In this document: positions 34,390-40,187 of the stretch, in pieces
Position numbering within the stretch: position 1 is the stretch's first letter
How the letters are laid out: each line of letters begins with the position of its first letter
Origin: Bremerella sp. P1
Lineage (GTDB): Bacteria > Planctomycetota > Planctomycetia > Pirellulales > Pirellulaceae
Direction of reading: 5' to 3'
Assembly: GCF_028748185.1 (NCBI RefSeq)
Contig: NZ_CP118164.1
Span: 3,286,001-3,350,000 of the forward strand
Length of the DNA stretch: 64,000 nt
Notes under the pieces: model-generated
The model's database searches: none
The model's input: the letters and a program-made list of their open reading frames with translations, nothing else
Told to the model about the DNA's origin: nothing
Position numbers and translations under genes: made by a program

Positions 34390-34431
34390 TTGCCCCTCAA
34401 GATTTTTCATAAAGACCAGGAGACCCCGTCG

Positions 34432-35280
34432 ATGAAATTTGGCATGAATTTGTTGCTTTGGTCCGGCGATCCCGATGACAGCCTGCTGCCGGTGATCGAA
34501 GAGTTGAAGGCCATGGGATATGACGGGGTGGAGATTCCACTTTTCAATCTCGACGTCGACAAGTGGACGAAGTACGGCGAAAAGATCAAAGCCATGGATC
34601 TGAAGTGCACCGCCGTCACGGTCCGCAACGAAGAGGACAACCCGATCAGCCCCGATGCATCGGTGCGTGCGAAAGGTGTCGAACTCAACAAGAAGACGCT
34701 TGACTGCTGTGCCGCCTTGGGCGCCGAAACGCTTGTCGGCCCCTATCACTCGGCGATCGGTATCTTCAGTGGTGCCGGCCCAACCGAAGACGAATGGAAG
34801 TGGGGCGTCGATTCCATGCGACAGGTTGCCGAGCATGCCGGCAATGTTGACGTGATGTTGGGTGTAGAAGCGCTCAACCGTTTTGAAACGTACCTGCTGA
34901 ACATCCATAAGGACTCGGCTCGTTTCGTCCGGGAAGTCAATCATCCTAACTGCAAGATGATGTACGACACCTTTCACTCGAACATCGAAGAATCGGATAT
35001 CGCTCAGGCCATTCGCGATTGTTCGGACGTACTGCATCACGTCCACATCTCAGAAAACAACCGTGCCACTCCAGGCAGCGGGCACATCGATTTCGATGTG
35101 AATTTCGACACGTTGAAGGAAGTCGGCTACGACGGCTGGATGGTCGTGGAAGCCTTTGGCCTGGCCCTGCCGGAAATCGCCGCCGCTACCAAGATCTGGC
35201 GCAAGATGTTCGACACCGAACTGCAACTGGCCAAAGACGGCCTGGCGTTCATGAAGCAGGAAGTTGCCAAACGCTGGTAG
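34432..35280 (+). CDS. Sugar epimerase of the D-psicose/D-tagatose 3-epimerase type
   Basis: 282 residues from ATG 34432, which has CAGGAGA upstream; the longer frame starts 14 codons earlier. It is an AP-endonuclease-2 TIM barrel. Metal and catalytic positions known for D-tagatose 3-epimerase can be seen: Glu in 'GVEALNRFETY', Asp in 'MMYDTFHSNIEE', His in 'HHVHISENNRATPG', Glu in 'MVVEAFGLALP'. It probably epimerises a ketohexose or related sugar at C3. It belongs to the sugar island starting at 31407 and is closed by a UUCG-loop terminator. Confidence 0.9.
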   Translation: MKFGMNLLLWSGDPDDSLLPVIEELKAMGYDGVEIPLFNLDVDKWTKYGEKIKAMDLKCTAVTVRNEEDNPISPDASVRAKGVELNKKTLDCCAALGAETLVGPYHSAIGIFSGAGPTEDEWKWGVDSMRQVAEHAGNVDVMLGVEALNRFETYLLNIHKDSARFVREVNHPNCKMMYDTFHSNIEESDIAQAIRDCSDVLHHVHISENNRATPGSGHIDFDVNFDTLKEVGYDGWMVVEAFGLALPEIAAATKIWRKMFDTELQLAKDGLAFMKQEVAKRW

Positions 35281-35305
35281 TCCGCCGGTTTAATTGATCT
35301 GAAGC

Positions 35306-35337
35306 AGAAGGCCACGTTCGCGTGGCCTTCTTTTTTT
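35306..35337 (+). terminator. Rho-independent terminator with UUCG loop
   Basis: AGAAGGCCACG, TTCG loop, CGTGGCCTTCT: a perfect 11-bp stem followed by TTTTTT. A textbook terminator. Confidence 0.93.
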
Positions 35338-35346
35338 GAAGAGATT

Positions 35347-35503
35347 TAGCCACAGAGGCCACAGAGAGCACCGAGGGGGAAGAATTAAGAAGAGCCACGG
35401 ATTACACAGATTCCACGGATGAGAGGAGCAACAACAGGTTGCCGTTGTGAGTTGGTCCAGTTTGTTCCCCTTTCCTCGGTGCTCTCTGTGACCTCTGTGG
35501 CTA
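35347..35503. repeat. Inverted intergenic repeat element (157 bp)
   Basis: A 30-base arm at 35347-35376 (TAGCCACAGAGGCCACAGAG, then AGCACCGAGG) is repeated in inverted orientation at 35474-35503 with one mismatch. The interior holds GCCACGGATTACACAGATTC (35395 on) and CCACGGAT. 'GCCACAGAG' and 'ACGGATTACACGGAT' words are known as abundant intergenic repeats in many environmental bacteria. No ORF lies inside. It could be a MITE- or REP-like unit sitting between a terminator and scpB. Confidence 0.75.
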
Positions 35504-35558
35504 GCTCTTCCTCGGCTTTCATCTTGGTTAAAGCGGGAACGATCGATATAGTTCGGTT

Positions 35559-36314
35559 ATGACGGACGACGAGGAACAGTTCGATCTCTCTGCGATGTTC
35601 GCCGACGACGCCGACGACGGTGGGCTTTCGTTGGATCGTTTGTCGGAAACGTACGCCGAGGCCCTGGGCAATCGTCCTGTGCCATTTCAGGAAGAGACTC
35701 CACCGGAGTCTGACGAGGAAGCGCCAGACGACGAATCGACCGCTGAAGCCATTTCGCGACTGGCGGATGAAGCAGAAGCGGATGATCCCTGCGAACTGTC
35801 TCCCACAACCATTCTAGAAGCGATCTTATTCGTCGGGCACGCGTCGAACGACAAATTGACGGCTGAAAAGGCCGCTTCGGTGATGCGTGGGGTTCAAGCA
35901 GACGAAATCGACGATTTGGTTTCGCAGCTTAATCGCAAGTATGAATCTGAAGGTTGCCCCTACGAAATCACGGCGGTTGGCGGAACTTATCGCATGGCCC
36001 TCCGTGACGAGTTTCGCCCCTTGCGCGAGAAGTTCTACGGCAAGGTACGTGAGGCCAAGCTCTCGCAGCCGGCGATCGATGTCCTCTCGTTGGTTGCCTA
36101 CAACCAGGGTGCCACGCGGGAAGAAGTTGATGACATGCGGAACAAGCCGAGCGGGCCAATTCTCACCCAGTTGGTGCGTCGCCGGCTGTTGCGTGTGCAG
36201 CCTGACCCGGAAGATAAGCGGCTGAAACGCTACACGACGACTGAACGCTTTCTGCAGTTGTTCGGGCTGACCTCGCTCGATGATCTGCCTCAGCCCCAAT
36301 CGCTTGATGATTGA
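35559..36314 (+). CDS. scpB: Segregation and condensation protein B
   Basis: 251 residues. The first about 80 are acidic and probably disordered, longer than in most ScpB proteins. The rest is the tandem winged-helix ScpB core: 'TILEAILFVGHASNDKLTAE', 'EITAVGGTYRMALRDEFRPL', 'LSQPAIDVLSLVAYNQGATR', and 'GPILTQLVRRRLLRVQPDPE'. ScpB joins SMC and the kleisin ScpA to organise and segregate the chromosome. ScpA is not adjacent. A small gene follows after 11 bases. Confidence 0.94.
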   Translation: MTDDEEQFDLSAMFADDADDGGLSLDRLSETYAEALGNRPVPFQEETPPESDEEAPDDESTAEAISRLADEAEADDPCELSPTTILEAILFVGHASNDKLTAEKAASVMRGVQADEIDDLVSQLNRKYESEGCPYEITAVGGTYRMALRDEFRPLREKFYGKVREAKLSQPAIDVLSLVAYNQGATREEVDDMRNKPSGPILTQLVRRRLLRVQPDPEDKRLKRYTTTERFLQLFGLTSLDDLPQPQSLDD

Positions 36315-36574: not shown

Positions 36575-36843
36575 GCACCATGAAATTCGTAGAGATTGCT
36601 CGTTTCGAGAAGGTGTCTATCGAAAATAAGGTCGCTGTAAGTCGTTGAATATAGGTGGCTTATGGCGACTGCGGCTTTTGGCAGCTGACGAGCCAAGATC
36701 CGCTTGGTACAATGCGTCCCATCGATTTTGAGGGGCACAAGTTGCCCCTAAACTCGCTTCCGCGATACTTAGTGAGTATCGTCAGGCGAAAGCCCAAGTG
36801 GTTTTTCTCGGAAGTGATTCATCCCCCCGACGCAAGGTTTGGC

Positions 36844-37539
36844 ATGTCCCGTCGTTCGCATCTCGCGCGACTTCGCCAACAGTCTCCGCTTATTCTGCCA
36901 TCAGTGCTATCGTGTGACTTTAGCGATATGCGCGGTGAGGTAGAGCGACTGGAAGCTGCTGGCGTGCAAGCACTTCATTTGGACGTGATGGACGGAAATT
37001 TCGTCCCCAACATTACTTACGGAATGCCCATTGTGGCAGCATTTCGTAAGTTGACACAACTTCCGCTCGACGTCCATTTGATGATCGAGAATCCGGAGCG
37101 TTATATCCGACAGTTCTATGAGGCGGGCGCGGATATCATTACCGTTCACGAGGAAGCGACTGGAATCGACACGGCCAGTGTCCTACAAGAGATCAAGGAT
37201 ATGGGCTGTGGAGCCGGGGTGACCATTAACCCCGATATCCCTGTCGAGCGAGTTCTCCCTTTCGTGGACACAGCCGACTTGATACTAATCATGAGTGTTA
37301 ATGCAGGTTTTGGCGGTCAAACGTTCAATCCTGTGGCGTTGGAGAAGCTCGAAGCTTTGCGAAAAGTCGGTCCTCCCGAACTTCTGTTGGAAGTCGACGG
37401 AGGCGTGAACCTGGAAACGGTTCAGGCATGTACCGAAGCCGGGGCTGACCTCTTGGTAATAGGATCAGCGATTTTCAATCAATCGGATTACGGCGCAGCG
37501 ATTGACCAACTCTATCGATCTGCCCAAGTTTCGACCTAA
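36844..37539 (+). CDS. rpe: Ribulose-phosphate 3-epimerase
   Basis: 231 residues from ATG 36844 (AAGG upstream); the open frame extends 63 codons further but that part lacks family sequence. It interconverts ribulose-5-phosphate and xylulose-5-phosphate in the pentose phosphate pathway. Catalytic and metal residues are visible in 'PSVLSCDFSDM', 'LHLDVMDGNFVPNITYG' (His, Asp), 'LDVHLMIENPE' and 'LLLEVDGGVNLETV'. The phosphate site is the C-terminal 'VIGSAIFN'. The next gene starts 18 bases after its stop. Confidence 0.95.
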   Translation: MSRRSHLARLRQQSPLILPSVLSCDFSDMRGEVERLEAAGVQALHLDVMDGNFVPNITYGMPIVAAFRKLTQLPLDVHLMIENPERYIRQFYEAGADIITVHEEATGIDTASVLQEIKDMGCGAGVTINPDIPVERVLPFVDTADLILIMSVNAGFGGQTFNPVALEKLEALRKVGPPELLLEVDGGVNLETVQACTEAGADLLVIGSAIFNQSDYGAAIDQLYRSAQVST

Positions 37540-37556: not shown

Positions 37557-38144
37557 ATGTTACGAATAGTGCTCGTCCGACCTGGGCAGACCGAATACGA
37601 CTTTCAGGGTCGCATCCGTAGCCGTCTTGCCGTTCCGCTGACCGAAGAAGGAACACGCCAGGCGTCGGAAATGGTTCAACAGCTTCAGGCCCTGGAGATT
37701 CAGGCCATCTACTGTGGCCCTTGCCAGTCATGTCAGCAGACCGCTGAGACGTTCGCCCATGCCCTGGGTAAGCGAATCAAGCAAATGGACTGCCTGGCGA
37801 ACTTGAACGCCGGACTTTGGCAGGGAAAACTGATCACCGAGGTCAAGCAAAACCAGCCGACCGTCTACCGATTGTGGCAGGAAAACCCAGAGGCGGTCTG
37901 TCCCCCCCAAGGGGAGACTTTAGGCGAGGTGCGCTTGCGTGTGCAGAACGCCCTAGACAAGATATGGAAAAAGCATCAAAAAGGTGACGGCAATGTGATT
38001 GTAGTCGCCCCAGAACCTCTGGCATCCATCATTCGCAGCGAGATCCTGCAAACCGACTTCGGTGATTTGTGGCAGGCCGAACGTCGATGTGGATGGTGGG
38101 AATTGATCCAGTATGAAAAAAACGCAGTCGTCTCGAAAGTCTAA
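37557..38144 (+). CDS. Histidine-phosphatase-fold protein lacking catalytic residues (probable pseudoenzyme)
   Basis: 195 residues with phosphoglycerate-mutase-like layout: '[18 protein letters not shown]', '[17 protein letters not shown]', '[12 protein letters not shown]', '[11 protein letters not shown]', '[18 protein letters not shown]'. The R-H-G motif reads R8-P9-G, the second His is Pro152 (VVAPEPLAS), the second Arg is Ser58, and the WEG Glu is Gln89. Only Arg8 of the phosphate pocket remains, so phosphatase or mutase activity is very unlikely. The frame is intact with normal codon use, arguing for a functional non-catalytic protein. It sits between rpe and accD and may overlap the accD start region. 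Confidence 0.88.
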
Positions 38145-38217
38145 GCCTGGCAAGAAGCAAGTGGCTGAAACTGACGAAACCACCTCTCCGACTACTCCCC
38201 TCGTCGAGGCATCCAAC

Positions 38218-39072
<855 letters not shown>

Positions 39073-39308: not shown

Positions 39309-40187
39309 ATGAGTCTGCTCAAGAAGTTCACGTCATTCTTCGCCGGCCAACCCAGGCTTGATATCGCCTCGCGATTTTCAATCTTGAAAGAAGCCGTCTC
39401 GGGGACGATGAGCGAATTCTACAAGGTCCGCGAGCATTCGACCGGCCGAACGCTCGGGCTCAAGATTCTCGACCTGGAAAAGCAGCAATTCTTCGATTCT
39501 CGCTTTCAGGGGCTGAAGCGTCCCAAGGAAGGCGAAATCGCCATGTCGCTCACGCATCCGTGCATTGTGCGGACGCTGGAGCACGGCTTGGTGACCACTG
39601 GCCAGCAATACGTGCTGATGGAGTACTTAGAAGGCAAAGGGCTCAATTCGCTGATTGTCGACCGAGATCCGATGCTGGAAGGGAAGCAGCTGGTCTTGCT
39701 GCGTCAAATGGCGGACGCCCTGGCCTGCGTCCACGAGGCCGGGTACATCCACCGCGACATTTGCCCTCGAAACTTCATTGCGGCCCCAGATTGCCGCTCG
39801 TGCAAGCTCATCGACTTTGGGCTCACGCTGCCCGCCCTGCCGGAGTTCATGGCTCCTGGCAATCGTACGGGGACACCAAACTACATGGCCCCTGAGATCG
39901 TTCGTCGCCGACCTACCGACCAACGCGTGGATATCTTTTCTCTGGGCGTAACAGGTTTCCGCCTTTTGGTTTACGAATTGCCATGGGCCAGCGTGGAAGG
40001 GACCGGGCGAGATGCTTTGAGCCACGATACCGTCCCACCTGGCAACATCTTTGACCATCGTCCGAAGCTCAATCGGGAATTGGGGGAGCTGATCATGTCG
40101 TGCATCGACCGTGATCCCCGCAACCGCCCCGAGACTGCCCGTGACCTGCTTAACGCGTTGCAGAGAATCAAGCGGTTAGACGCTTAG
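39309..40187 (+). CDS. Serine/threonine protein kinase
   Basis: 292 residues, essentially a bare kinase domain with no membrane helix or sensor. The catalytic Lys is in 'LGLKILDLEKQ', the helix-C Glu is in 'PKEGEIAMSLTHP', the loop is 'YIHRDICPRNF', the metal site is 'LIDFGLTLPA', and the APE motif is in 'NYMAPEIV'. The glycine-rich loop is atypical ('LKEAVSGTMSEFYKV' instead of GxGxxG). It should phosphorylate Ser/Thr in the cytoplasm; the substrate is unknown. Confidence 0.92.
   Translation: MSLLKKFTSFFAGQPRLDIASRFSILKEAVSGTMSEFYKVREHSTGRTLGLKILDLEKQQFFDSRFQGLKRPKEGEIAMSLTHPCIVRTLEHGLVTTGQQYVLMEYLEGKGLNSLIVDRDPMLEGKQLVLLRQMADALACVHEAGYIHRDICPRNFIAAPDCRSCKLIDFGLTLPALPEFMAPGNRTGTPNYMAPEIVRRRPTDQRVDIFSLGVTGFRLLVYELPWASVEGTGRDALSHDTVPPGNIFDHRPKLNRELGELIMSCIDRDPRNRPETARDLLNALQRIKRLDA

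Follow-up and report, generated by a model that had tools for sequence, protein, structure and literature searches.

A probable histidine-phosphatase-fold pseudoenzyme conserved beside rpe and/or accD in Planctomycetota

The window analysed here is a 64,000-nucleotide stretch of Bremerella sp. P1 (positions 3286001-3350000 of a genome that consists of one contig of 6.96 Mb), and it contains a gene at 37557-38144 (+ strand) whose 195-aa product has the fold of a histidine phosphatase without most of the residues that perform its chemistry. We regard this protein as a member of an ancient pseudoenzyme family of Planctomycetota, apparently vertically inherited and kept close to rpe and accD. Judging from sequence comparison, the reading we prefer, at a probability of roughly 55%, is that it acts as a non-catalytic regulator or adaptor of its own rpe-accD cluster and binds a partner via a remodelled pocket.

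The reading frame is unbroken, with an ATG at 37557 and a TAA that ends at 38144. Residues 4-188 match PF00300 (His_Phos_1) with an E-value of 3.8e-36 and a score of 125 bits (cut-off 21.7), and this match together with the predicted fold places the protein in branch 1 of the histidine phosphatase superfamily. Structure prediction, which had been proposed as a check, returned a confident histidine-phosphatase fold: the AlphaFold2 model, computed from an alignment of 66 sequences, has a pLDDT of 94.4 and a pTM of 0.90, and its top solved matches are structures of PspA from Hydrogenobacter thermophilus (4ij6/4ij5, Z 24.8/24.3, 183 residues, rmsd 1.7-1.8 Å), with other active branch-1 phosphatases as further neighbours (Z >20). 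PspA (NF045917) is also the top sequence relative of solved structure, ranks 1-3 in Foldseek, and has a like fold over nearly the whole chain at 28% identity, and the superfamily and fold are likewise shared with CobC/alpha-ribazole phosphatase (TIGR03162) and PhoE (1ebb/1h2e). None of the NCBIfam equivalog cut-offs is reached, however, the best score being 95.5 bits for TIGR03162 (cut-off 162.9), with 94.7 bits for NF045917 (cut-off 350). The protein also differs from PspA in being without the catalytic His9, Arg58, Glu82, and second His, and the catalytic residues of CobC and PhoE are gone from it as well.

To map the residues, 33 orthologues were combined into a profile and aligned with the solved structures of PspA (4ij5) and PhoE (1ebb), whose catalytic residues served as the reference. 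On the plus strand, the position of the nucleophilic His is occupied by Pro9 (37581-37583; P 73, S 2, and A 1 among 76 Pirellulaceae sequences), that of the second Arg by Ser58 (37728-37730), that of the catalytic Glu by Asn82 (37800-37802), and that of the second catalytic His by Pro152 (38010-38012; P in 62/76). The sole phosphate-pocket residue kept is Arg8 (37578-37580; R in 68/76), the Arg of the RHG motif, so that an RHG His, a second pocket Arg, a catalytic Glu, and a second His are all missing. The original prediction had counted four of five pocket residues as replaced, and the count stands, as do the changes of His9 to Pro, Arg58 to Ser, and the second His to Pro152; Gln89, which it had taken for the lost Glu, instead holds the W-E-G position, distinct from the catalytic Glu column ('..IIEIDHGMWSG' in PspA, '..LREIHLGDWEG' in PhoE) in which Asn82 lies. 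Pro154 (38016-38018, +) is invariant in the class-level set (115/115), and Asp15 is found in 111/115 class-level sequences, while the canonical Asn15 is visible in many RHG proteins as 'RHGETxWN'. Asp15 and Asn82 could form a swapped amide-carboxylate pair, possibly a re-formed polar pair, which we offer as an idea and not as a result.

The substitutions are conserved far beyond the source genome. A same-family search gave a match in 215 of 241 genomes, 209 of them at orthologue level and six weak (G039, G077, G079, G111, G223, and G235, with E about 1e-4 to 1e-13). Searches at wider levels matched 140/146 genomes in the order (E <= 1e-10), 190/248 in the class (E <= 1e-15), and 91/294 in the phylum (E <= 1e-15), these being counts that include canonical paralogues and come from overlapping sets of genomes. 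From Pirellulaceae, 90 loci (L005-L094) were taken, 14 repeats were dropped, and 76 were aligned; beyond that family, 20 order loci, 19 usable class loci, and 20 phylum loci were fetched, the last comprising 8 proteins without RHG and 12 with it, which brings the pseudoenzyme homologues to 76 + 20 + 19 + 8 = 123. Conservation in Pirellulaceae orthologues, another of the checks first proposed, was confirmed: all 76 sequences are without His9, Arg58, and His152, with S, A, C, P, or D at position 58, and both Asn82 and Pro154 are present in 76/76. Across the wider set, His9, Arg58, and His152 each occur in 0/123, and orthologues with a normal RHG motif were searched for in these 123 and found in none. 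Position 82 follows the taxonomy, with Asn in 115/115 inside the class and Glu in 7/8 outside it and in none inside. In eight congeners (86-98% identical), the catalytic residues are gone at the same positions, and because the losses are family-wide, we consider the substitutions more than chance. Residues kept at a level of at least 95% in all 123 are T12, R19, P27, G32, G86, L87, W88, G90, P111, P116, P117, G119, E120, and R128; since G-x-W-x-G, PPxGE, and R128 are typical of active proteins too, this pattern reflects fold constraint as much as new function. A pattern scan demanding Asn82 returned 156 hits, the best 80 of which are titled planctomycete or plain 'bacterium'; Asn82 in 80/80 of the loci taken from it is circular, and these are left out of our counts. 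In a plasmid collection, 68 records match, all below 60% identity, and the annotation 'histidine phosphatase family protein' is carried by each of the five listed.

Selection and phylogeny point in the same direction. By the Nei-Gojobori method, comparison of the window gene with its counterparts in seven congeners gives a dN/dS of 0.027-0.080, against 0.007-0.091 over the final 210 codons of rpe. After 15 active-site columns had been taken out, a maximum-likelihood tree of 80 proteins, whose bootstrap had not fully settled, splits 66 pseudoenzyme sequences from 13 of RHG/RHA type by a branch with support of 100/99, with a truncated paralogue from the host genome (L004) floating on the pseudoenzyme side, and it groups 58 class-level sequences together (96/91). 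Two far-diverged pseudoenzymes of class family f22 (L339 and L340, from G411 and G426) also lie between rpe and accD and keep Pro9 and Asn82, the branch of L339 being very long. An entropy contrast between the pocket and the rest of the protein relied on pocket residues chosen by hand and is discounted as independent evidence. Taken together, the lack of RHG orthologues, the low dN/dS, the separate branch, and the shared locus argue for an ancient family rather than local decay, and with catalytic residues lost across orthologues under purifying selection, the original designation as a pseudoenzyme is strongly supported. The simplest history would be a single early loss of His9, Arg58, and His152, with Glu82 later giving way to Asn in the class to which the window belongs.

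The genomic setting was also as first described, with an intact frame on the plus strand between rpe and accD. Upstream is rpe, for ribulose-phosphate 3-epimerase (36655-37539, +; TIGR01163, E 5.4e-74, above cut-off), whose listed start is probably too far upstream, as the TIGR01163 match begins at residue 80; its stop lies 17 nt before the pseudoenzyme start. Downstream is accD, for the acetyl-CoA carboxylase carboxyltransferase beta subunit (38113-39072, +; TIGR00515, E 2.8e-112, above cut-off), and its predicted start overlaps the pseudoenzyme end by 32 nt. Farther upstream is scpB (35559-36314, +; PF04079, E 5.4e-36), a neighbour kept in many relatives. The region 34390-36314 (+), with an ORF that we call sugar-phosphate isomerase/epimerase-like from reading its translation and with scpB, lies upstream of rpe in many Pirellulaceae.

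Every one of the 123 pseudoenzyme homologues adjoins rpe, accD, or both, compared with 0/12 of the RHG proteins from the same phylum search. Among the 76 Pirellulaceae loci, both genes are adjacent in 54, rpe only in 19, and accD only in 2, and in the remaining one rpe is adjacent and the sequence is truncated towards accD; the corresponding numbers (both/rpe only/accD only) are 15/3/2 in the order, 17/0/2 in the class, and 5/0/3 in the phylum, where all 8 pseudoenzyme loci are directly before accD and 5 of them also after rpe. A survey centred on accD (L267-L366, phylum and class members) found a homologue upstream in 8/100 loci, all 8 without RHG, and none in the other 92, some of which have short upstream sequence; in 40 of these 92, counted by eye, the middle of rpe is within 1 kb upstream. 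In one large class family (f23), the pseudoenzyme is absent from 23/23 accD loci. The proximity of rpe to accD in many loci without a homologue implies that rpe and accD are an old pair, which the pseudoenzyme entered or left. Both neighbours can depart: in 19 of the 75 Pirellulaceae loci that could be assessed, accD has gone and the pseudoenzyme stays by rpe, and elsewhere rpe is gone and accD stays, so that synteny singles out neither. As a partner candidate, rpe is therefore equally good, and the original suggestion that the protein tunes acetyl-CoA carboxylase draws weak support from the ancient cluster and is tempered by these displacements. The arrangement may also be inherited gene order without functional meaning. 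In none of the loci examined is the pseudoenzyme fused to Rpe or AccD; one locus (L251) has a 634-aa open frame, in which neither Rpe nor AccD is matched. A change of residue 107 from Trp to Gly accompanies the absence of accD (Gly in 15/22 with accD away versus 1/92 with accD next to the gene) but was rejected as phylogeny: only 3 changes are needed on the tree, most of them within a single clade, and the 2 independent pairs that fall on starred branches do not reach significance.

The gene appears to be dispensable in places. Of 27 Pirellulaceae genomes that had first given a weak match or none, a repeat search found an orthologue-level match in one (G120, 1e-43) and none in the other 26. 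In three genomes of one genus (g64; L392, L394, and L396), the pseudoenzyme is missing, rpe, accD, and a kinase remain in order, and about 200 nt separate the rpe end from the accD match; these are natural knock-outs of the pseudoenzyme. The kinase is a Ser/Thr protein kinase and usually accompanies accD; in the window it is encoded downstream of accD at 39309-40187 (+; PF00069, E 9.8e-36) and has its K, HRD, and DFG motifs. Of 56 Pirellulaceae loci with accD, 45 have a relative of this kinase no more than 1.5 kb behind accD (6 are without one and 5 are too short), and in the 22 genomes in which accD has moved from rpe, the kinase is directly behind accD in 19 and the pseudoenzyme is by rpe in all 22. 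Together, accD and the kinase are a possible module.

How might such a protein work? With the catalytic residues lost, we infer that phosphohistidine chemistry is gone and that the protein would act without catalysis, its remodelled pocket mouth binding a partner protein or perhaps a non-phosphate metabolite. The putative clients would be encoded in its own cluster: Rpe, the AccD carboxyltransferase, or both. Its role would be modulatory rather than that of an obligatory subunit, which fits best since some lineages lost the pseudoenzyme and kept rpe and accD. A simple phosphate sensor is disfavoured because both His and one Arg are lost and only Arg8 of the five pocket residues is left, and we would consider it likelier that the protein is an adaptor for other proteins or senses a different ligand. 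A bolder version, in which a phylum-specific non-catalytic regulator would couple Rpe, in the pentose-phosphate branch, with AccD, in malonyl-CoA synthesis, by reading a non-phosphate ligand or peptide in the remodelled pocket (Asp15/Asn82, Pro9, Pro152, Pro154), is speculative, and we hold it to be rather doubtful.

Two alternatives give the protein a different role, and we consider both unlikely, to about the same degree. In one, it would form a heteromer with an active histidine phosphatase encoded at another site in the genome and would stabilise or restrain that enzyme. The nearest solved relative, PspA, is a phosphoserine phosphatase able to pair with PspB, a relative of lower activity, and in enzyme pairs an inactive subunit often stabilises or restrains the active one. 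The host genome also has three more PF00300 proteins with RHG or RHA motifs, although such paralogues are common, the active ones here are not close to it, and the conserved neighbours are rpe and accD. An RHA-type domain of the same genome (L003, G000:C1:1892913-1893467) sits inside a 521-aa open frame and may belong to a multidomain protein. In the other alternative, the protein would be a real enzyme with a new chemistry in the remodelled pocket, in which D15, R19, N82, E120, and R128 are kept and C115 is nearly invariant. Arg8, Arg19, and the PPxGE motif survive, so the sequence leaves room for a different chemistry; 15 positions are invariant in the 76 Pirellulaceae sequences, mostly in or near old active-site motifs, and the canonical Asn15/Glu82 has become Asp15/Asn82. 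However, R19, G86, W88, G90, PPxGE, and R128 are also features of the active family, no obvious set of metal or nucleophile residues can be seen, and C115 is Cys in only 1/8 sequences outside the class.

We regard as highly improbable that the gene is a neutral hitchhiker, a decayed phosphatase held only by its operon position. Its place in an old gene cluster and its deletion from some lineages would fit this, but its dN/dS resembles that of rpe, the altered pocket is invariant over order and class, and frames are open in nearly all matches listed. Degeneration of an active family in one genome, local frameshift, or sequencing error can practically be dismissed, as the losses are shared by the congeners and all 123 homologues and dN/dS is low.

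Pseudoenzymes are best known from eukaryotes. One example is the receptor pseudophosphatase PTPRU, which, as described in PMC7320164, likewise keeps a phosphatase fold without catalytic residues; its fold is that of the eukaryotic protein-tyrosine phosphatases, unlike the bacterial branch-1 histidine phosphatase fold discussed here. Our search of openly licensed papers found no description of such a family in Planctomycetota, and the parts of PMC11277029 and PMC11836120 consulted contain nothing that bears on it. For annotation, a 'histidine phosphatase' label at the rpe-accD locus denotes a fold and not an activity. For evolution, this would be a phosphatase fold that gave up its chemistry early in the history of a bacterial phylum and stayed at one set position, flanked by two genes of central metabolism, leaving a stepwise record (His, Arg, and His gone everywhere, Glu later) in which precise losses of the gene are natural controls. 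The hosts are bacteria with unusual cell biology, and the proposal is testable in cultured species. If the protein does regulate acetyl-CoA carboxylase or Rpe, it would represent a new control of fatty-acid or pentose-phosphate flux in bacteria.
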